From assembly GCF_900108185.1 (NCBI RefSeq), contig NZ_FNVA01000001.1, positions 682,001 to 746,000 of the forward strand: a DNA stretch of 64,000 bases, read 5' to 3'. Below, piece by piece: positions 15,044-24,937 of the stretch. Below the pieces are notes generated by a model. The model saw only the letters and a program-made list of their open reading frames with translations, was not told the DNA's origin and made no database searches. Within the stretch, counting starts at the first letter, position 1. Each line of letters starts with the position of its first letter. The translations under genes and the position numbers were made by a program. The stretch comes from Bryocella elongata (lineage in GTDB: Bacteria > Acidobacteriota > Terriglobia > Terriglobales > Acidobacteriaceae).

Positions 15044-16069
15044 CTAGACTGCCGCGACCTCTCTCAGCGCTACGGGGCGACGCTCTGCGAGTGAGAGCCG
15101 CGCAGCCATCGCCATGACGACCGGCATGCGACCATCAAGGCCGTTCACGGTCGTGGGGGTATCATCCCGAATGGCCTGCACGAAGCTGCCAAGTTCATTG
15201 GTGAAGCTCGCGGCGTAGCGATCCATGAAGAAGTTCAACGGCAGGTCGCGGTACACGTTGGTGGCGGAGCTTACGACGGCCTGGTTCGGATAGCAGTTCT
15301 CCGCAGAGATCTTACCCGCGGAGCCGAGCACCTCAACGCGCTGGTCGTAGCCGTAAACAGCCTTGCGGCTATTGTCGATGGTGCCGATCACTCCGTTGCG
15401 GAAGTGGAGCACAAGCAACGCTGTGTCGATGTCTCCAGCCTCACCAATGGCGGGATCCACGCGAACGCTACCGGCCGCATAGATGCTCTCCACTTCGTCG
15501 CCGATGAGGAAGCGCGCCATGTCGAAGTCGTGGATGGTCATATCGCGGAACATGCCGCCGGAGACCTTTACGTATTCAATCGGGGGGGGCGCGGGATCGC
15601 GGCTGATGATGTGCATGAGGCTGGGAGTGCCAATCTCTCCATTTGCCACAGCCGCGTGCACGCGCGCAAAGTTCGCATCGAAGCGGCGATTAAAGCCGAT
15701 CTGCAGCTTTACACCGGCCTTCTCAACTGCGCCGAGGGCCCGGTCGATTTCGTTCAGCTCAAGAGCGATTGGCTTCTCGCAGAAGATATGCTTGCCCGCC
15801 AACGCAGCGTCGACGATGAGCTGGGCATGCGTGTCTGTCGAGGAGCAGACGAGGACGGCGTCGATCTCCGGATTGGCGAGCAACTCAGCGCTGGAGGCTG
15901 CCACGGTGGGAATACCGTAGAGTGCAGCGACCTCTTCAGCAGAAGCGCGATTCGCGTCTGTAATGGCCACAGCCCGCGCCTGCGGGAGCCGAAAGGCAAT
16001 GGACTCGGCATGCACGCGGCCAATGCGGCCAGCGCCGATGATTCCGATATGTAGAGGGTCTTGCTTCAA
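15044..16069 (-). CDS. iolG: Inositol 2-dehydrogenase IolG
   Basis: Cytoplasmic Gfo/Idh/MocA dehydrogenase, 341 residues, without signal peptide. It oxidises myo-inositol to 2-keto-myo-inositol (scyllo-inosose) with NAD+, the first step of inositol catabolism. Rossmann motif GIIGAGRIGRVHAES at the N-terminus; the catalytic lysine is K99 in FCEKPIAL; D176 and H180 in GGMFRDMTIHDFDMARFL match the IolG catalytic Asp and His. It is the last gene of the iol run, 38 bases after iolE. scyllo-Inositol or another cyclitol as substrate cannot be excluded, but the context makes myo-inositol the best reading. Confidence 0.9.
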   Translation of the reverse strand: MKQDPLHIGIIGAGRIGRVHAESIAFRLPQARAVAITDANRASAEEVAALYGIPTVAASSAELLANPEIDAVLVCSSTDTHAQLIVDAALAGKHIFCEKPIALELNEIDRALGAVEKAGVKLQIGFNRRFDANFARVHAAVANGEIGTPSLMHIISRDPAPPPIEYVKVSGGMFRDMTIHDFDMARFLIGDEVESIYAAGSVRVDPAIGEAGDIDTALLVLHFRNGVIGTIDNSRKAVYGYDQRVEVLGSAGKISAENCYPNQAVVSSATNVYRDLPLNFFMDRYAASFTNELGSFVQAIRDDTPTTVNGLDGRMPVVMAMAARLSLAERRPVALREVAAV

Positions 16070-16107
16070 AAGGGACCGATGCCTTTCACGTTGTGTTGCC
16101 TCAACAT

Positions 16108-17043
16108 CTATAGAAGCGCGGATTCGACTTCGCGCAGGAAATTCAGGTTGCGAGCTGCACTATCCTTCGGTGCGCCCATGCCAGGCAGCACGTCCTGCTC
16201 CACGACGATGTAGCCGGAATACTCGCGGCTGCGAAGCCACTTGAGCAGTGCGCTGAAATCCACGATGCCTTTGCCGAGCTCGCAGAAGACTCCGTGCTGG
16301 AGGGAAGTAAAGTAGTCCCATTGCTCATTGCGGGAGCGGCTGGCGATAGACGCAGAGCAGTCTTTGGCGTGGACATACCACACGCGATCGGCGAAGCGGT
16401 CGAGGAACGAGATCATGTCCGCACCTTGCTCTCCCGCACCGAAGGCGAAGTGGCCCGTGTCGAAGACGAGGCCAAGCAACGCTGGATCAGCTCGCTCGAG
16501 CAGGCTGGCAATCTCGGCAGGCGTCTCGACGTATCCAGCGCAGTGATGATGGAAGACGGTGCGCAGGCCGGTCTCTTCCAACACAGCTTTCGCGACACGC
16601 TCTGCACCGAGAGCGAAGGTGGCCCACTCGGAGGAAGTGAGTCCCTGCGCTGGTGTGATGCGGCCGGCCAGCTTCGTACGCTCAGGCACACTGCCATTGT
16701 TGTCTGCGAGGACAAGATACGGTGCTGGCGTTGTCGCCACTGCTGCGAGTAACTTCGCGGTCTTCACTGCGTTGTCGATCCCGGACTGGTGCGAACTTTC
16801 GTCCTTCAAGGCAACTGGGACGAAGGCGCCCAGCATGGTGAGTTCACGCTTCACGAGTTCCACGCGAAGGGCGGCCGGATCAGACGGCATAAAGTTCCAG
16901 TCGCCGAGTTCTGTGCCCGTGTATCCGCAGGCCGCGAGTTCGTCGAGCATCTGCTGGTAGCCGATGGGCTTGGCGCTCTTTGCTTCTTGAAACTCCAGCA
17001 TGCCCCACGAGCAGGGGGCATTGCCGATCAGGAACGGCTTCAT
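16108..17043 (-). CDS. iolE: myo-Inosose-2 dehydratase IolE
   Basis: 311 residues, TIM-barrel protein of the AP-endonuclease-2 fold. It dehydrates 2-keto-myo-inositol to 3D-trihydroxycyclohexane-1,2-dione. Visible: the family N-terminus IGNAPCSWGMLEF, GYTGTELGDWNFMP, FHHHCAGYVETPAEI, LVFDTGHFAFG, WYVHAKDC and IVVEQDVLPGMG, which carry the metal-binding Glu, Asp and His residues. The ATG at 17043 is chosen because it starts directly on the family sequence; longer in-frame starts reach into iolD. It lies 25 bases after iolD and before iolG. Confidence 0.93.
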   Translation of the reverse strand: MKPFLIGNAPCSWGMLEFQEAKSAKPIGYQQMLDELAACGYTGTELGDWNFMPSDPAALRVELVKRELTMLGAFVPVALKDESSHQSGIDNAVKTAKLLAAVATTPAPYLVLADNNGSVPERTKLAGRITPAQGLTSSEWATFALGAERVAKAVLEETGLRTVFHHHCAGYVETPAEIASLLERADPALLGLVFDTGHFAFGAGEQGADMISFLDRFADRVWYVHAKDCSASIASRSRNEQWDYFTSLQHGVFCELGKGIVDFSALLKWLRSREYSGYIVVEQDVLPGMGAPKDSAARNLNFLREVESALL

Positions 17044-17068
17044 CGGTTTTCTCTCGCCTCCAGCGGGG

Positions 17069-18943
17069 TTATTTGTTGCTATTGTTGAAGAAGTAGCGCT
17101 CGCGCTTGCGGGCGACTTCGTAGTTTGCGCGGGCTTGCTGCACGCCCGGCATGGTCGAGACTTCAGGTACGGCAACGTCCCACCAGGAGTCGTAGCTTGG
17201 TACGCCTCGTGTGCCTTCGGTCTCGATGACGACCACGCTCGTTCTGGGTGATGCTTTGGCAGCGAGCAATGCGTCTTTGAATTCGGCGATGGTGGCGACC
17301 TTCACGGAGTCGACCCCGAGGCTGCGAGCGTTGGCTGCGTAGTCAACGACAAAGTTGTCACCATCTAGTGCGCCGCTGTCGGTTCGCTTCTTCACGGTGG
17401 TGCCGAAGCCTTCCATACCGAGCGAGCGGCTGAGGCTTCCGATCGAGCCGAAGCCCTTGTTGTCCACGATCACAACGATGATCTTGATGCCTTCCTGTGC
17501 GGCGGTGACCAGCTCACTCGGCATCATCAGGTAGGTGGCATCGCCCACCCAGACGAAGACATCGCGGGTGGGATCAGCGAGCCTCGCGCCCATGCCGCCG
17601 GGAAGCTCATAACCCATGCAGGAGTAGCCGTACTCCATGTGGTAACTGTTGGGCGTGCGCGCGCGCCACAGCTTATGGAGATCGCCGGGCTGGCTGCCTG
17701 CGGCGGAGACGATCATGTCGCGATCTTCGGCAACATCCCATATCGCTCCGATGACCGCGCTCTGGGCTGGCTTGCCGTTGCTCTCGATGTACAGCAGGCG
17801 GGCATCTTCCTTGAGCCACTCCGCGATGAGTGCGGCATACTCTGCGGCGTATGTCGATTCGATCTTGAAGTTGCCGAGCCCTGCCGCGAGGCGCTCCAAC
17901 CCTGCGCGTGCATCTGCAACGAGGGCGAGCGCGGACACTTTGTAGGCGTCGAACTCTGCGACGTTGAGGTTGATGAAGCGGACGTCGGGGTTCTGGAACG
18001 CGGTCATCGACGCGGTGGTGAAGTCCGAGTAGCGCGTGCCGATGCCGAGGATGACATCGGCGTTAGCAGCGACGCGATTGGCGGCGAGCGTTCCTGTCGC
18101 ACCGATGGCGCCGAGGTTCTGCGGATGATCCCACGCTAGCGAACCCTTGCCTGCTTGCGTCTCGCTGACGGGGATTCCGGTCTGCGCAGCAAACTTCGCG
18201 AGCTGCTGCGCCGCCTCGCTCATCAGCACGCCGCCGCCCGCGATGATGAGGGGACGCTTTGCGCTACGCAGGACTTTAACTGCACGCTGCAGCGACACTG
18301 CGTCAGGTTCTGCACGGCGGATGATCCACACGCGGCGTTCGAACATCTCTTCCGGATAGTCGAAGGCTTCGGCTTGCACGTCCTGAGGAAGCGAGAGCGT
18401 GACAGCACCACAGTCCGCGGGCGAAGTCAGCACGCGCATTGCTTCGGGGAGCGCGGTGATGATCTGTTCAGGTCGCGTGATGCGGTCCCAGTAGCGGCTC
18501 ACAGGCTTGAAGCAGTCGTTGACGCTGATGTCCTGCGTGAACGCTGACTCCAGCTGCTGCAGGACGGGCGCGACCTTGCGCGTCGCGAAGATGTCGCCGG
18601 GAAGTAACAGCACAGGCAGACGATTGATCGTCGCGAGCGCTGCGCCGGTGATCATATTCGTCGCGCCGGGGCCAATGGATGAGGTGCACGCGAACGCACG
18701 CATACGATTGCTGGCCTTGGCGAAGCCACTTGCAAGGTGAACGCCGGACTGCTCGTTCCGGATTGGGTAATAGCGGAAGTCCGGATTCTCCTGCAGTGCT
18801 TGTGCGATGCCCGCAACGTTGCCATGCCCGAAGATGCCAAGCATTCCGGCGAAGAATTGGTGTTGCTGGCCATCGCGCTCGACGTACTGGTTCTTCAAAT
18901 AAGTGACCAGGGCCTGCGCCATCGTGAGACGTCGCGTGCTCAT
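17069..18943 (-). CDS. iolD: 3D-(3,5/4)-trihydroxycyclohexane-1,2-dione acylhydrolase IolD
   Basis: Thiamine-diphosphate enzyme, 624 residues, which opens the cyclitol ring to 5-deoxy-D-glucuronate. The N-terminal ThDP-binding domain has the catalytic Glu in IRNEQSGVHLASGFA and the IGPGATNMITG segment. The C-terminal domain has the metal/ThDP motif GDATYLMMPSELV ending in DNKGFGSIGSLSRSLG. Full length for the family. The start at 18943 overlaps the stop of the aldolase gene by four bases (ATGA), so translation is coupled. Confidence 0.95.
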   Translation of the reverse strand: MSTRRLTMAQALVTYLKNQYVERDGQQHQFFAGMLGIFGHGNVAGIAQALQENPDFRYYPIRNEQSGVHLASGFAKASNRMRAFACTSSIGPGATNMITGAALATINRLPVLLLPGDIFATRKVAPVLQQLESAFTQDISVNDCFKPVSRYWDRITRPEQIITALPEAMRVLTSPADCGAVTLSLPQDVQAEAFDYPEEMFERRVWIIRRAEPDAVSLQRAVKVLRSAKRPLIIAGGGVLMSEAAQQLAKFAAQTGIPVSETQAGKGSLAWDHPQNLGAIGATGTLAANRVAANADVILGIGTRYSDFTTASMTAFQNPDVRFINLNVAEFDAYKVSALALVADARAGLERLAAGLGNFKIESTYAAEYAALIAEWLKEDARLLYIESNGKPAQSAVIGAIWDVAEDRDMIVSAAGSQPGDLHKLWRARTPNSYHMEYGYSCMGYELPGGMGARLADPTRDVFVWVGDATYLMMPSELVTAAQEGIKIIVVIVDNKGFGSIGSLSRSLGMEGFGTTVKKRTDSGALDGDNFVVDYAANARSLGVDSVKVATIAEFKDALLAAKASPRTSVVVIETEGTRGVPSYDSWWDVAVPEVSTMPGVQQARANYEVARKRERYFFNNSNK

Positions 18944-19956
18944 CGCGTGCCTCCCGGATAGAGCGTGTCGGGTGCTTCAAGAGGGGATGCGAAACCATCG
19001 AACGCGGCTTGCGCATCGAGCTTGTCATGGATGATGGCACTTGCTGCGCGCGCGATGATGCCGGGATCGCCGTTGCCAGGGAAGAGCACGTTGCGGCCCA
19101 CCATTGCGCCGCGTACGTTATAGCCTGAATCCATCGCGGTGCGGAGCTGCTCGAGGAAGGGCTTGGGATTGCCAGCGGACTCACCGCCAAGCAGCACGAT
19201 GGGCAACGTCGTCGAGCGCGCGACCGTGGCGAAGTCTTCCGTGTACGGAAGTTTCAGCCAGAGGTTGCGGCTTGAGTCTCCGAGTGCGCTGGACACGCCC
19301 GCGAGTCGCGCCACGGCCTCGGCCGTCTTCGTGACCGGATAGCCCTTGTCGGTCTTTGCGACAGGAAGTGGTTCGAGGAACATGGGCAGGTCGAGTGCGT
19401 TGCAGGCGGTGATGGCTTCGGCGCAGGCCATCATGGTCTTCAGTGAGGCGGGCTCGTTGATGTCCACGCGCAGCAGGGTCTTCGCACCGTCGAGGTTCCA
19501 TTGAGCGCAGGTCGCGGGGGACGGGCCAGTCATGGGATCGTCGAGTTCCCATGCTGCGCCTGCGAGGCCTCCGCGATTGAGGCTCGCGATGAGCACCTTG
19601 TTCTCGAGGAGGGGGGTGAGGTCCTGCTCGGCGCGAAGTGCGTCCACCAGCAGCAGGTCTTCGAGAATGTCCATCGACGCCATCACGCCATCGACGCCAT
19701 CGCTGACCAGTACACGAAGAATGCGCGCCAGGTAGTCGCGTCGATCGGCCATGCCCAGAAGGTTGGTTCCCACGTTCGACACAAAGCGTGCAGGGTGATC
19801 CGCAGCGATGATGTTGAGGCGGCCATCAAGGGTAAGCTTGTCGCGCCGCTTGCGGTGTTGCGCTGCATTCAGTGCAAGCGAAGGCCGCTCCACACGAGCA
19901 TCAATGATCGCGTGCAGGAGTGCGTCGGGAAAGAAGGTTGCGCTCGAGAAGCTCAT
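18940..19956 (-). CDS. Cgl0159-type (beta/alpha)8 aldolase, probable DKGP aldolase of inositol pathway
   Basis: 338 residues, resembling the (beta/alpha)8 aldolase-fold proteins found in actinobacterial inositol clusters (Cgl0159 type), not the class II IolJ. Motifs: LNIIAADHPARFV near the N-terminus, DGVMASMDILEDLL, LLRVDINEPAS, MFLEPLPVAKTDKGYPVTKTA, WLKLPYTEDF with a possible Schiff-base lysine, and VLLGGESAGNPKPFL near the phosphate site. Position between iolD and iolC, coupled by ATGA overlaps on both sides, makes cleavage of 2-deoxy-5-keto-gluconate 6-phosphate to DHAP and malonate semialdehyde the likely job. That role is inferred from context. The ATG at 19956 is preferred over a longer in-frame start at 20031. 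Confidence 0.8.
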   Translation of the reverse strand: MSFSSATFFPDALLHAIIDARVERPSLALNAAQHRKRRDKLTLDGRLNIIAADHPARFVSNVGTNLLGMADRRDYLARILRVLVSDGVDGVMASMDILEDLLLVDALRAEQDLTPLLENKVLIASLNRGGLAGAAWELDDPMTGPSPATCAQWNLDGAKTLLRVDINEPASLKTMMACAEAITACNALDLPMFLEPLPVAKTDKGYPVTKTAEAVARLAGVSSALGDSSRNLWLKLPYTEDFATVARSTTLPIVLLGGESAGNPKPFLEQLRTAMDSGYNVRGAMVGRNVLFPGNGDPGIIARAASAIIHDKLDAQAAFDGFASPLEAPDTLYPGGTR

Positions 19957-20906
19957 GCAGGTACGGGGATCGCTTTCTGCTCGCGGATCATCGTCTCGAC
20001 CTCGGCGAGCGTGGGCATGGCTTCGGAACATGGCACGCGGCTGACGACGATGGCTGCCGCGGCGTTGCCGTAGTGCAGGCAGTCGGTCAGCGACTTGCCA
20101 TTGGTGTAGGCATAGAGGAAGCCCGAAGCGAAGCCATCGCCGGCGCCTATGGTGGTCGCCACCTGCACACGATACGGCGGCAGATACGTGGCGCCATCTT
20201 TGGTGAGGATGCGAGTGCCTTCGTCTCCGAGCTTGGAGACGAGGACAGGGACACCGATCTTCTGGATCTTCGCGATAGCCTGATCGAGGTCATCGACGCC
20301 AGCAGAGAGCTTGAGTTCGCCCTGGTTGCCGATGAGGACGTCTACGTAGGGAAGCGCGAGGCGTATCGCGAGTCCGGCCTCTGCGGGACTGCGCCAGGAC
20401 ATGGAGCGGAAGTCGACGTCGAGGACGACGGTGACGCCTGCGGCCTTCGCTGCCTCCATCGCGCGATACGCGCTCTCGCGTGAGGGCGAAGCGCACAACG
20501 CAGTGCCGTTGAAGACGAACATCTTTCCACTGCCTGCGAAGCGAAGGTCATCATCGGTCGCGTCGAGTCGTGTATCGACGGCATCATGACGATAGAAGAC
20601 CTGCGGGAAGCTGTCGGGTGGTGTGACTTCAGTGAGGCAGAGCGACGGCAGATAGCCCGGGGCAGTCTGCACGTGCGAGATGTCCACACCCTCGGCCAAG
20701 AGGAAGTCCTTGAGGAAGCCGCTCAGCGCATCGTTGCCGAGGCAGCTGATCATGCCCACCTTTGCGCCGAGACGTGACAGGCCCACGGCCATGTTCGCGC
20801 TCGAGCCGCCAAGGTAGCGCGAGAACGTACGGACCTGTGGCAGCGGCACGTTGAACTGATCCGAGTACAGGTCATAGCCGATGCGGCCAAGAATGACGAC
20901 GTCCAT
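19953..20906 (-). CDS. iolC: 5-Dehydro-2-deoxygluconokinase IolC
   Basis: PfkB/ribokinase-family sugar kinase, 317 residues. It phosphorylates 2-deoxy-5-keto-D-gluconate with ATP. Visible: the N-terminal GGSSANMAVGLSRLGAKV signature, and TTIGAGDGFASGFLYAY near residue 255, which holds the anion hole and catalytic Asp. AAGGAG seven bases upstream supports the ATG at 20906 over the TTG just before it. The end overlaps the aldolase start by four bases. iolB lies 64 bases upstream. Confidence 0.9.
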   Translation of the reverse strand: MDVVILGRIGYDLYSDQFNVPLPQVRTFSRYLGGSSANMAVGLSRLGAKVGMISCLGNDALSGFLKDFLLAEGVDISHVQTAPGYLPSLCLTEVTPPDSFPQVFYRHDAVDTRLDATDDDLRFAGSGKMFVFNGTALCASPSRESAYRAMEAAKAAGVTVVLDVDFRSMSWRSPAEAGLAIRLALPYVDVLIGNQGELKLSAGVDDLDQAIAKIQKIGVPVLVSKLGDEGTRILTKDGATYLPPYRVQVATTIGAGDGFASGFLYAYTNGKSLTDCLHYGNAAAAIVVSRVPCSEAMPTLAEVETMIREQKAIPVPA

Positions 20907-20969
20907 CAACGGACTCCTTGCTTCGTAGCAGATACTTCGCGGTGCGCGTGATCGTGGAGCATCGATGCC

Positions 20970-21782
20970 CTAGCGGACCAGAGGAACGCGCGGGTCTTTG
21001 TCCGTCCAGTGCTCACGAACCCAGGCGTGATCGGGATCGTCGGAGGCTGCCATGGAGCGCGCCGAACCCGAGAGAACGTTCAGGTAGTACACGTTGTAGC
21101 CGTGGCCTGCGGAGACGGGGTGATATCCCTCGGGGACGATGACCAGTTCGCCATCCCGTACGGTGATGGTCTCGTCGAGCCTGCCGTCCGCGGTGTACAC
21201 GCGCTGGATAGCGAATCCGCCTGGCTTGTCGATCTTGTAGTAGTAGATCTCGTCGAGATCCACTTCGCCCGGAGGGTTGTGAACGTCGTGCTTGTGCGGT
21301 GGGAAGCTGGACCAGTTGCCTGAGGGGGTATAGACCTCGCAGATGAGCAGCCTCTGCGCGCGGAAATGCGGCGGGATGATCGAGTTGATCTGCCGCGTCG
21401 CGTTGCCCCCGCCGCGGATCTCGACCGCGCACTCGTCCGGCGTGATGTGATGTGCGGGAAAGTGCTGCTCCGCTTTGCAGTAGCAGAAGGCGATGTCGCA
21501 ATCGGTGGTGGCTGTAACGGTGTAGTCGGTGTCGAGCGGGAGGTACAGCGCGTGCGGCTTCCCGTCGAAGACCGTGGCACGATCGCCGACCGTCGCGAAG
21601 TCGCCCGCAGAGCTGGTGATTGAGCACGTCCCACCGAGCATCACGATGCAAAGCTCGCGGCCGGTGAGGAGCTCATGAAAGCTGGCTCCGGCCAGGAGAC
21701 GGCGCACCGCGAACGAGATGTGTTCGAAGCCAAAGTCGGCTGCGCGGTCGGTGTAGGCTTCGGGTTTCAGATGGAGATTCAT
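20970..21782 (-). CDS. iolB: 5-Deoxy-glucuronate isomerase IolB
   Basis: 270-residue cupin-fold isomerase that converts 5-deoxy-D-glucuronate to 2-deoxy-5-keto-D-gluconate. The metal-site region SSFPPHKHDVHNPPGEVDLDEIYYY, taken as the HKHD and ExDEIYYY parts, and the later EGYHPVSAGHGYNVYYLNVL are characteristic. It is the first gene of the iol run; its start is 22 bases after the candidate operator. Confidence 0.93.
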   Translation of the reverse strand: MNLHLKPEAYTDRAADFGFEHISFAVRRLLAGASFHELLTGRELCIVMLGGTCSITSSAGDFATVGDRATVFDGKPHALYLPLDTDYTVTATTDCDIAFCYCKAEQHFPAHHITPDECAVEIRGGGNATRQINSIIPPHFRAQRLLICEVYTPSGNWSSFPPHKHDVHNPPGEVDLDEIYYYKIDKPGGFAIQRVYTADGRLDETITVRDGELVIVPEGYHPVSAGHGYNVYYLNVLSGSARSMAASDDPDHAWVREHWTDKDPRVPLVR

Positions 21783-22012: not shown

Positions 22013-22978
22013 TCAGATATCACGCGCGCAGCGAAAGCTGGTGTTGGTTGTCGCACTGTCAGGAGTGTTCGAACTGCGCGCACCAACGCGATAACGGTTG
22101 CAGTAGGACTCGTGGCAGAGATAGGAACCTCCGCGAACGACGCGGCTTCCGCCCTCAAGAGGACCTGTCGGGTTAAGCCTCGTGGCGAGCTCGTGAAATG
22201 TCGGATGGAACCAGTCCGCGCACCACTCCCAGGTGTTGCCGGTGATGGAGAAGACGTCGTAGCCGTTTGCGGCAAAGGCATCGACCGGGCAAGTGTTGGT
22301 AAAGCCATCTTCCGCAGAGTTGAAGTGCGGGAACTCGCCTTGCCAGATGTTGCAGAGATGAATGCCACCGGGTGTGAGATCGTCGCCCCAGGGGTAGAGT
22401 CGCTGAACGAGTCCGCCACGCGCCGTGTACTCCCATTCAGCCTCCGTCGGAAGGCGCTTTCCGGCCCAGGTTGCGTAAGCGGTAGCGTCGTTCCAGCTCA
22501 CATGGACGACCGGCCGGTCCTGCCTGTCATTGATGGCTGACCCTGGGCCTTCCGGCGAGCGCCAGTCGGCCCCCCAGATGCGACGCCACCAGTCCGCCGA
22601 CGGAACACGATCCTCGCTCAGGGCTGCTTCGGCAGTCTCGGGCAGATCGCCTTCGAAGACGAAAGACCACCCGAAGGTCTCGGCTTCGGTACGGTAACCG
22701 GTCGCGTCCACGAAGCGAGCAAACGCGCGGTTGGTCACGGGGTACCGGTCGATCAGAAAGGGATCGATCCGCACCTCGCGGATGGGACCTTCGCCATCGG
22801 CAGGGAAGCCCAGCGGATAGTCCGTGCCCATCAGAAAGGTGCCGCCGGGCAGTTCGACCATGTCGGCAGGGGAGCCGGAGTTGACGCGAACTCGCGCAGC
22901 GGAGGCGTCCCGCGAGATCTGCAGGACGGCTGCACGGCTCTTACTTGGGACACAGCACGGCGGTATGGGTTTGTTCAA
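22013..22978 (-). CDS. Formylglycine-generating enzyme (aerobic FGE, SUMF1 family)
   Basis: 321 residues. FGE oxidises the cysteine of the sulfatase CxPxR motif to formylglycine using O2 and copper. This is a true FGE rather than an EgtB-like relative: the C-terminus has GGSYLCHESYCNRYR with both catalytic cysteines (C288 and C293, five apart as in human and Streptomyces FGE), then RSSNTPDSATTN and FRCA. Other family marks: LPGGTFLMG, VVHVSWNDATAYATWAG, LPTEAEWEYTARGGL and NIWQGEFPHFN. No signal peptide, so cytoplasmic. It starts with TTG at 22978 inside the upstream stop (TTGA), with GGAG seven bases before. The N-terminus contains CCVPSKSR, close to the substrate motif itself. No sulfatase gene is in the window. 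Confidence 0.93.
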   Translation of the reverse strand: MNKPIPPCCVPSKSRAAVLQISRDASAARVRVNSGSPADMVELPGGTFLMGTDYPLGFPADGEGPIREVRIDPFLIDRYPVTNRAFARFVDATGYRTEAETFGWSFVFEGDLPETAEAALSEDRVPSADWWRRIWGADWRSPEGPGSAINDRQDRPVVHVSWNDATAYATWAGKRLPTEAEWEYTARGGLVQRLYPWGDDLTPGGIHLCNIWQGEFPHFNSAEDGFTNTCPVDAFAANGYDVFSITGNTWEWCADWFHPTFHELATRLNPTGPLEGGSRVVRGGSYLCHESYCNRYRVGARSSNTPDSATTNTSFRCARDI

Positions 22979-23811
22979 ACGGAGACTCCTGTCCGGCGAA
23001 TCTCGGACTGCGCTGCGAGGCCGCGCAGGTAGGTGAGTACGGCGGCCTGTTTGCGATCGTCGTGCAGTTCGCGGGCAATCTGGGCTCGCACCTCCGAGAG
23101 ACCCAGCTGACGCGGGGCCCGGCGCGCCAGAACGGTAGCGATGTGAAAGCCGAAGACGGTGCGGAAGGTCTCGCTGACTGTACCGGGCTTCAGCGCGAAG
23201 ACGACGTCATCGAACTCCTCGACCATCTCGCCGCGGGCGATCCAGCCAAGGTCGCCACCCACGCCAGCGCAGTCGGAGAAGCGATCTGCGACCTTGTGGA
23301 ACGCCTCGCCTGCGTCCAGCGCTTCGCGGGCCTCTGTGATGGTCGCGAGCGCGAGTGCTTCGTCGCGAACGCCGTCCACGTTGGCGATGATGTGGCGTAC
23401 CTGCAGCGTCTCGGGCTCACGGAAGCGTTCGCGTTGCGCAATGTACGAGGCTTCTACCTCTTTGGCCGGGGGGCGCGGAACCGTCCTGACGATCTCGTCC
23501 ATGAGGCGCTCAATCTGCAGCGCACGGATGATTGCATCGCGCTCGCTGTGGCTGCAGGTAACACTTTGCGGCGTGCCTCGCCTTCGCGCAAGCTCGGCGG
23601 CAATATCGTCGGGGGAGATGTCCGGGTGGCGTCTCGCCGCTGCCTGCCGTAACAGGACTTGCAGGACGGCATTCTCCTCGGCGATGGCGAAGATGCGTGG
23701 GTCGTCTGCTGCAGAGAGAGACGCCTCTGGAAGCAACGTTTGCTGCAGCAGCCGGAGTTGGTGCGCAATCGCCTCGTCCGACACGGGTTCGCCATTCACG
23801 ATCAGAGGCAT
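22975..23811 (-). CDS. Parvulin-type peptidylprolyl isomerase (NifM/SurA-like)
   Basis: 278 residues with an N-terminal SurA-like helical region and a C-terminal parvulin domain: LQVRHIIANV, AFHKVADRFSDC, GGDLGWIARGEMVEEF, ALKPGTVSETFRTVFGFHIATVL. These are the standard rotamase motifs. There is no signal peptide, so it should act in the cytoplasm, as NifM does. The ATG at 23811 begins MPLIVNGEPVSD, as parvulins often do; in-frame starts further up would run through the divergent promoter region. Its stop overlaps the TTG start of the FGE gene, so the two proteins are probably made together. Confidence 0.85.
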   Translation of the reverse strand: MPLIVNGEPVSDEAIAHQLRLLQQTLLPEASLSAADDPRIFAIAEENAVLQVLLRQAAARRHPDISPDDIAAELARRRGTPQSVTCSHSERDAIIRALQIERLMDEIVRTVPRPPAKEVEASYIAQRERFREPETLQVRHIIANVDGVRDEALALATITEAREALDAGEAFHKVADRFSDCAGVGGDLGWIARGEMVEEFDDVVFALKPGTVSETFRTVFGFHIATVLARRAPRQLGLSEVRAQIARELHDDRKQAAVLTYLRGLAAQSEIRRTGVSV

Positions 23812-23899
23812 AGTCGTTGCAACTCGGGCCCGAGGCCGAGTTGATGATAGCGCGTGATCAATGGGGCTGCCTTGTGGGATGATGTCGTCAGGAAACGAC

Positions 23900-24937
23900 A
23901 TGGCGGTTCGGCTTAAGGATATTGCACGCGACCTCGGTATCTCGACGGTCACAGTCTCAAAGGTACTTCGCGGCAACTCCGACGTTGGCGACAAGACACG
24001 TGCGCGTGTCCTCAAGCGCATGAAGGAGCTGAACTACCAGCCCAACATGCTGGCCCGCGGTCTCGCGAGTGGGAAGACATATACGGTCGGGCTGGTGGTG
24101 CCGGACCTGGTGCACCCGTTCTTCGCGGAGTTCGCGAAGTCGCTTTCCGGCGAGCTGCGCAAGACGCACCGTGCGCTGCTGCTGGCCTCCAGCGAAGAAG
24201 ACCCGGTCATCGAGATGCAGGAGATTCGCACGCTGCTGCAGCGCGGCGTGGATGTCCTGATCATCGCGTCCTGCCAGGCGGTTCTGAAGAACTTCTACGA
24301 ACTGGGCGACAATCGCACGCCCTACCTGCTGTTCGATCGCAACTTCCCGCACCTTGCGGCGAACTTCATTGGCAACGATGATGTGGTGGTCGGCGAGATG
24401 GCGACACGGCACCTTATCGACCTGGGTCGCACGCGGATCGCCCACATTGGAGCGCGCTACAGCAGCCCGGCGTTCGATCGCCTGCGTGGCTACAGGAACG
24501 CCCTGGCCGCCGCAGGTCTCCCCGCTGACGAGGACCTCGTGGTCACGCGTGAGCGCGTCGAAGAGGCTGGTGACCTGGTCGGTAACGCGATGATGCGCGA
24601 TCTGCTCAAGCTCAAGCCCCGGCCGGACGCAGTCTTCTGCTACAACGACACGACCGCAATTGGCGCCATCGAGGCGGTGCTCGAGGCGGGCCTGAGGGTG
24701 CCGGAGGACGTGGCCATCATCGGCTGCGGAAACCTGCGCTACGCCGCGTATCTCAAGGTGCCGCTGAGCGCCATCGACCAGAACACCACCGAGCTGGGGA
24801 AGCGTGCCGCGCAGGTCGCTGTTGAGCTTGCGGAGAAGCCGCAGGCCGAGCTGAAGTGCATCATGATTCCTCCGAAGCTCGTTGCCCGCGAGTCCACGGT
24901 CGGGAAGCGCCGCAAGCGCACTCCGTTGAATGCTTAG
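23900..24937 (+). CDS. LacI/GalR-family transcriptional regulator
   Basis: 345 residues. N-terminal LacI helix-turn-helix (RLKDIARDLGISTVTVSKVL) and hinge helix (YQPNMLARGLASGKT), then a periplasmic-binding-protein-like effector domain (VGLVVPDLVHPFFAEFAK, YLLFDRNFP, PDAVFCYNDTTAIGAIEA). The ATG at 23900 is taken as start because LacI proteins begin just before the KDIA helix; ATGs at 23861, 23879 and 23882 are in frame. It lies beside the iol run and diverges from the parvulin/FGE pair, so it may control inositol genes, its own promoter region or both. A half-palindrome TGATAGCGC at 23845 precedes it. Confidence 0.9.
   Translation: MAVRLKDIARDLGISTVTVSKVLRGNSDVGDKTRARVLKRMKELNYQPNMLARGLASGKTYTVGLVVPDLVHPFFAEFAKSLSGELRKTHRALLLASSEEDPVIEMQEIRTLLQRGVDVLIIASCQAVLKNFYELGDNRTPYLLFDRNFPHLAANFIGNDDVVVGEMATRHLIDLGRTRIAHIGARYSSPAFDRLRGYRNALAAAGLPADEDLVVTRERVEEAGDLVGNAMMRDLLKLKPRPDAVFCYNDTTAIGAIEAVLEAGLRVPEDVAIIGCGNLRYAAYLKVPLSAIDQNTTELGKRAAQVAVELAEKPQAELKCIMIPPKLVARESTVGKRRKRTPLNA

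Follow-up and report, generated by a model that had tools for sequence, protein, structure and literature searches.

A parvulin gene overlaps the start of an FGE gene

The window, a 64,000-nucleotide stretch of the Bryocella elongata genome, carries on its minus strand a gene for a parvulin-type prolyl isomerase whose last bases are shared with the start of a gene for a formylglycine-generating enzyme (FGE). The features of the pair are:

22975..23811, minus strand: parvulin (SurA-like, PpiC-type prolyl isomerase, predicted to be cytoplasmic), from the open reading frame, the Pfam Rotamase families and AlphaFold2/Foldseek
22013..22978, minus strand: aerobic FGE, 321 aa, TTG start, from PF03781, identity to solved FGEs and C288/C293
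22975..22978, minus strand: 4-base overlap TTGA, FGE TTG start over parvulin TGA stop, from the sequence
22865..22960, minus strand: N-terminal tail of the FGE (PCCVPSKSRAAVLQISRDASAARVRVNSGSPA, residues 7-38), with a predicted helix at 13-27; kept among the class's paired FGEs but not among the sampled unpaired ones

In the list of open reading frames, the parvulin frame runs from an ATG at 23811 to a TGA stop that ends at 22975 and encodes 278 amino acids. The FGE frame begins with the TTG at 22978, has no start codon further upstream in frame and ends at 22013. The parvulin frame can be extended upstream, with a first possible start at 24021, and the start at 23811 is the one that fits its family, as judged from related frames. 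We set aside a longer, signal-peptide-bearing form that would start upstream, since frames of the family begin near a VNGE-like motif (24/61 loci).

The downstream protein scores 272.5 bits against the FGE-sulfatase domain PF03781 (cut-off 23.3). Its model is 57-59% identical to the solved FGE of Thermomonospora curvata (5nxl and others), and the protein is 54-59% identical to solved enzymes overall. Like the aerobic FGEs of T. curvata and S. coelicolor and human SUMF1, it has the whole catalytic core with the active-site cysteines. We aligned 58 FGEs (alignment A4), namely 46 paired with a parvulin (44 from the window's class, Terriglobia, and two from Hydrogenedentota) and 12 of 20 unpaired loci. 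C288 and C293, which we take to be the two active-site cysteines of the copper/substrate site, are invariant across all of them. The domain score, these cysteines and the identity to solved FGEs mark the window's enzyme as a true aerobic FGE, and the arrangement described in an earlier note, a parvulin gene ending inside the TTG start of such an enzyme, stands as observed.

The parvulin resembles exported chaperones but its family appears to lack a signal peptide

The window's parvulin exceeds the Pfam cut-offs for Rotamase_3, Rotamase and Rotamase_2. Among 66 aligned sequences N6, Q56, C181, M196, F200, F220, G221 and H223 are invariant, and H140 is kept in at least 90%. With a domain over the cut-off and conserved H140, C181, M196, F200 and H223, which presumably correspond to H59, C113, M130, F134 and H157 of Pin1, the protein is a parvulin by its predicted active site. 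Its AlphaFold2 model (pLDDT 94.8; this and the FGE model are single chains) has SurA, PEB4 and PrsA among its best Foldseek matches, with which it shares a predicted layout of an N-terminal helical domain, a single parvulin domain and a C-terminal helix.

SurA, PEB4 and PrsA are exported, whereas no signal peptide is apparent in the window's parvulin family. At 24 of 61 loci (8 of the 61 were unscored) the open frame starts no more than 15 residues from the VNGE-like motif, which leaves no room there for a signal peptide; this exclusion by frame length covers those 24 loci, and the remaining ones are compatible with longer frames.

In NCBIfam, the top match to the window's parvulin is NifM (TIGR02933), which it resembles in its variable N-terminal part, its PpiC domain and its apparent tie to one maturation pathway. 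It differs from NifM in falling far under the cut-off (81.6 against 168.2 bits) and in having sulfatase maturases as partner genes. A family scan of a small number of genes, from the window and from neighbourhoods, found no nif gene.

Relatives of the parvulin (65 sequences, some of them unpaired) are 28-42% identical to it, and those of the FGE (57 sequences, 12 of them unpaired) are 54-68% identical to the window's. That parvulin identity lies so low while FGE holds its range suggests, at the level of sequence, that the linkage is old.

The pair is conserved in Terriglobia but is not universal

We searched 349 genomes of the window's class with the parvulin profile A2 and drew the line for strong parvulins at E ≤7.5e-60, with the next match at 1.7e-44; FGE was called at E ≤1e-90. 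Three loci from the bait scan described below (L111, L112 and L116) appear to be the class-sample loci L244, L243 and L246, and each entered the class counts a single time. Strong parvulins were found at 52 loci in 51 genomes and FGE in 81 genomes. Every parvulin genome had FGE (51/51) and none of the 268 genomes lacking FGE had the parvulin, giving a Fisher p of 2e-40 with kinship ignored.

FGE was the next gene downstream, in the same orientation, at 49 of the 52 parvulin loci. The other three were L223, with FGE 26 kb off on the contig, L239, with FGE on the opposite strand, and L233, a second parvulin copy of genome G403 that has a sulfatase about 1 kb downstream and no FGE within about 6 kb. 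An NTGA overlap (ATGA, GTGA or TTGA, with the start being ATG, GTG or TTG) was present in 34 of the 49 adjacent pairs, and the other 15 had other overlaps or gaps. As a control, we compared distances for strong and lower-scoring parvulin matches: 50 of the 52 strong ones were within 1 kb of FGE (one of the 50 on the opposite strand), compared with 0/33 lower-scoring ones within 5 kb.

Conservation of the pair excludes chance adjacency of parvulin and FGE, and the overlap confirmed in the window is more than a local accident. The proposal that a dedicated parvulin is made with FGE is well supported. Contrary to the genomic half of the refuting condition in the earlier note, the pair extends beyond close relatives: it is found in Hydrogenedentota and in three families of Terriglobia, with parvulin identities of 28-42%.

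Pairing was uneven among FGE genomes, with the parvulin in 8/37 of the window's family (f1), 33/34 of family f2 and 10/10 of family f91. The parvulin is missing in 30 of the 81 FGE genomes (29/37 in the window's family and 1/34 in f2), so FGE as such does not need it, and it is not a general FGE requirement.

In a tree of the FGEs, paired and unpaired enzymes were largely separate, with 3 label changes compared with 17.9 in shuffles (the short row L114 was left out). Ancestry and pairing are partly confounded in these sequences because the unpaired FGEs used come mostly from the window's family.

A broader sample of 297 Acidobacteriota genomes had FGE in 42 at E 1e-50. The parvulin was present in only two (G179 and G225) of the 40 FGE stretches inspected besides the window, and among 29 parvulin loci inspected FGE was nearby only in the same two genomes. 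As this sample held only two genomes from other families of the window's class, it understated conservation, and we used the class sample instead.

Paired FGEs carry a conserved N-terminal tail

Paired FGEs differ from other aerobic FGEs by a conserved N-terminal tail beyond the region that aligns to solved enzymes (alignments start at residue 31 or later). Comparison of the 46 paired with the 12 unpaired FGEs gave seven strongly differing columns, of which five are in the tail (P7, S22, R29, G35 and S36) and two, T266 and D320, in the core. P7 was found in 43/46 paired and 1/12 unpaired enzymes.

Among paired FGEs of the class, tail identity was 38-44% where core identity was 59-73%, compared with 7-9% in unpaired FGEs where core identity was 57-72%. 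Above 80% core identity, tail identity was 65% for paired and 31% for unpaired enzymes. Both paired FGEs of Hydrogenedentota were without the conserved tail. Third codon positions of the tail vary and synonymous change is free, implying that the constraint acts on the protein and ruling out an RNA-level constraint as the source of tail conservation. AlphaFold2 predicts a helix at residues 13-27, with a mean pLDDT of 86 for residues 11-20 and 95 for residues 21-30.

The tail follows the pattern P-C-C-V-P-S-K/R-x-R-A-x-x-L, which is near the sulfatase signature C-x-P-S-R. Exact C-x-P-x-R was present in 9/46 paired tails, C-x-P-x-R/K in 38/46, and C-x-P-x-R in 3/12 unpaired tails. Many paired rows were picked by a CC-x-P near the frame start, so its invariance among paired FGEs is partly selection; L267 was missed this way because its frame extends far upstream. 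From its sequence, the CC-x-P motif looks like FGE's own substrate motif.

N-terminal CC-x-P recurs in true FGEs both with and without the parvulin (L073-L090, L109, L110, L407, L411 and L416). It is also present in three actinobacterial plasmid FGEs, among ten plasmid N-termini of which the pattern failed to read five, while one haloarchaeal and one Paenibacillus FGE have CC without the proline. An N-terminal extension of human FGE that carries Cys50 and Cys52 is discussed in PMC4505483.

Unpaired FGEs more often have a sulfatase gene nearby

Eight PF00884 sulfatase matches occur in the genome of the window, four of them with C-x-P-S-R and all of them outside the window. We located neighbouring sulfatases with BLAST, using five sulfatase queries, a search that distant ones may escape, and found one within 3 kb of 13/49 paired FGEs (L071, L072 and L221-L269) and of 15/20 unpaired FGEs (L073-L090, L109 and L110). 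It is as if paired FGEs were generalists.

The same parvulin family occurs with a second maturase

We used the parvulin alignment A1 as bait against genome contigs, with 80 loci listed. A true FGE was directly downstream in 12 of these, including the first 11 (L111-L121); the twelfth was L128, from Hydrogenedentota. No maturase was nearby at 67 of the 80. L118 and L119, both from one chromosome record of Terriglobus roseus DSM 18391, are two apparent parvulin-FGE-sulfatase regions with identical gene tables. Loci L122 (Phycisphaerae), L123 (Ignavibacteria) and L128 were followed up by sampling the class or phylum of each.

Downstream of the L123 parvulin come the anaerobic sulfatase maturase anSME (TIGR03942, 429.9 bits, cut-off 349.45) and then a sulfatase with CGPSR. 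anSME produces the same formylglycine in sulfatases as FGE. It is an unrelated radical-SAM enzyme and is absent from the window's pair. A strong parvulin was found in 1/149 genomes of this class, L123's own (G614).

L122 has a parvulin whose match (E 5e-43) is as good as some of those at the first 11 loci, and no maturase nearby. Among 198 Phycisphaerae genomes around it, 21 had a strong parvulin, and anSME was present in 20 of these 21 compared with 67/177 others, kinship ignored. Since the strong line (4.4e-75) is partly arbitrary, we also applied a looser one, which gave anSME in 22/27 compared with 65/171. No association was seen for the weaker parvulins, some of which look exported to judge from the N-termini of L306 and L307 (6/15 compared with 81/183). 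FGE was not found at E 1e-60 in any of the 21 strong-parvulin genomes. A sulfatase lay within 1.5 kb of 2/21 strong parvulins and a maturase beside none. We rejected a single anSME clade as the source of the link because parvulin genomes fall in several clades with 7 label changes, according to a rapidly built tree in which some branches are long. The anSME matches in Phycisphaerae are of two kinds, at about 465-530 and about 324-436 bits; the lower-scoring kind is present in each of the 20 parvulin genomes that have anSME, and G873 and G949 carry the higher-scoring one as well.

Among 68 Hydrogenedentota genomes, eight had a strong parvulin, two of them beside FGE. The other six gave no match at E 1e-60 in a search for FGE only.

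Plasmid records held parvulin relatives in 74 cases and FGE relatives in 171. Among the 60 listed of each, two records were common to both, with the genes more than 100 kb apart and no pair. Within 1.5 kb flanks of ten plasmid FGE loci, no annotated parvulin was seen (two of the ten carry no annotated features).

A proposed helper for sulfatase maturation

We consider it about an even bet (a probability of roughly 0.5) that the parvulin is a dedicated cytoplasmic chaperone or prolyl isomerase of formylglycine-dependent sulfatase maturation. This reading is based on the linkage to FGE, the linkage to anSME in one genome and the co-occurrence with it elsewhere, the active-site residues, the SurA/PrsA-like architecture and the tail. 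Because one parvulin family is found with two chemically unrelated maturases, the sulfatase is the shared element, and for this reason we prefer a sulfatase-directed parvulin; the common thread looks like sulfatase maturation rather than FGE alone. The idea in the earlier note that a parvulin could prepare or hold C-x-P-x-R fits the link to the second, unrelated maturase.

In such a scheme, the client would be an unfolded sulfatase before export. The helical domain of the parvulin may hold it, with the parvulin domain binding to prolines or isomerising them. One of these prolines could be that of C-x-P-x-R, and the motif would thereby stay within reach of the maturase until the sulfatase folds or exits the cytoplasm. 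In Terriglobia, recruitment of the parvulin to FGE probably relies on the conserved tail at the FGE N-terminus, and the ratio of the two proteins may be set by coupled translation. Several observations count against this reading. Many FGE genomes, above all in the window's family, lack the parvulin, pairing and FGE ancestry are partly confounded, most listed loci (67 of 80, L122 among them) have no maturase nearby, and anSME adjacency was seen in one genome. Only 2/21 Phycisphaerae copies are near a sulfatase and none is near a maturase, 6/8 Hydrogenedentota parvulins are without FGE and both pairs there are tail-less, and paired FGEs adjoin sulfatases less often than unpaired ones.

By analogy with NifM and NifH, the client could instead be FGE itself, with the parvulin folding or maturing one FGE lineage while self-folding lineages manage without it, an account that we regard as possible if rather unlikely. 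According to PMC12691677, NifM is a two-part parvulin for one maturation pathway on which only some NifH lineages depend. Such a case of a parvulin serving one enzyme lineage only supports this account, as does the rank of NifM as best NCBIfam match. The tight coupling to FGE in the window's class points the same way, as do the separation of paired and unpaired FGEs in the tree and the paired enzymes' own tail with its extra proline P7. The core adds column 229, which is proline-richer in paired FGEs (52% compared with 0/12; Thr in the window), and column 259, with proline in 96% compared with 42%. However, no core proline that is near-universal in paired FGEs is wholly missing from unpaired ones, the 21 Phycisphaerae genomes have a strong parvulin without FGE, and the parvulin of L123 precedes anSME and a sulfatase.

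It is unlikely that the parvulin is a general cytoplasmic holdase or isomerase, adjacent to FGE by an accident of shared regulation that became fixed in one class, and co-occurring with anSME through ancestry or lifestyle. L122 lies beside a thymidylate-synthase-like gene and nrdR, with similar neighbours seen by eye elsewhere in Phycisphaerae, many FGE-bearing relatives are unpaired, and most listed loci have no maturase nearby, all as such a role would have it. Yet the parvulin is fully nested within FGE genomes among the 349, it is found again beside FGE in another phylum and together with anSME in other lineages, and within the Phycisphaerae sample the weaker parvulins show no anSME link. 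We give very little weight to a parvulin that keeps sulfatase precursors unfolded and export-competent with no direct role in formylglycine formation. The predicted SurA/PrsA-like architecture, the second G403 copy near a sulfatase without FGE and the two Phycisphaerae copies beside sulfatases agree with it, but the neighbour that is kept in the window's class is FGE (49/52) and not a sulfatase (13/49 within 3 kb).

A bolder form of the preferred, sulfatase-directed reading, which we offer tentatively and hold to be doubtful as a whole, makes the parvulin a third component of sulfatase maturation: a prolyl isomerase that would act on C-x-P-x-R and serve two chemically unrelated maturases. The tail of paired FGEs would then mimic the sulfatase signature, allowing the parvulin to dock on FGE with the groove that also reads the client, or allowing FGE to modify or inhibit itself by means of the tail.

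To our knowledge, bacterial formylglycine formation has been treated as a one-enzyme step. A literature search, with most subscription journals outside its reach, returned no description of a parvulin or other PPIase partner of FGE or of sulfatase maturation. A conserved helper, if real, would alter the one-enzyme view and explain how the motif is accessed before folding or export. It could raise yields of sulfatases and of FGE-made aldehyde-tagged proteins, and it would be a second natural parvulin, beside NifM, dedicated to one maturation pathway. The tail of its partner enzyme, FGE, can be mutated directly.

The surroundings of the pair in the window offer a further observation. It is flanked on one side by a same-strand myo-inositol catabolism cluster (15044-21782, minus strand) with NCBIfam matches to iolB, iolC, iolD, iolE and iolG, that of iolE being under its cut-off, and on the other by a divergent LacI-family regulator (23861-24937, plus strand). 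Given this position between the two, FGE and the parvulin may be co-expressed with inositol use.
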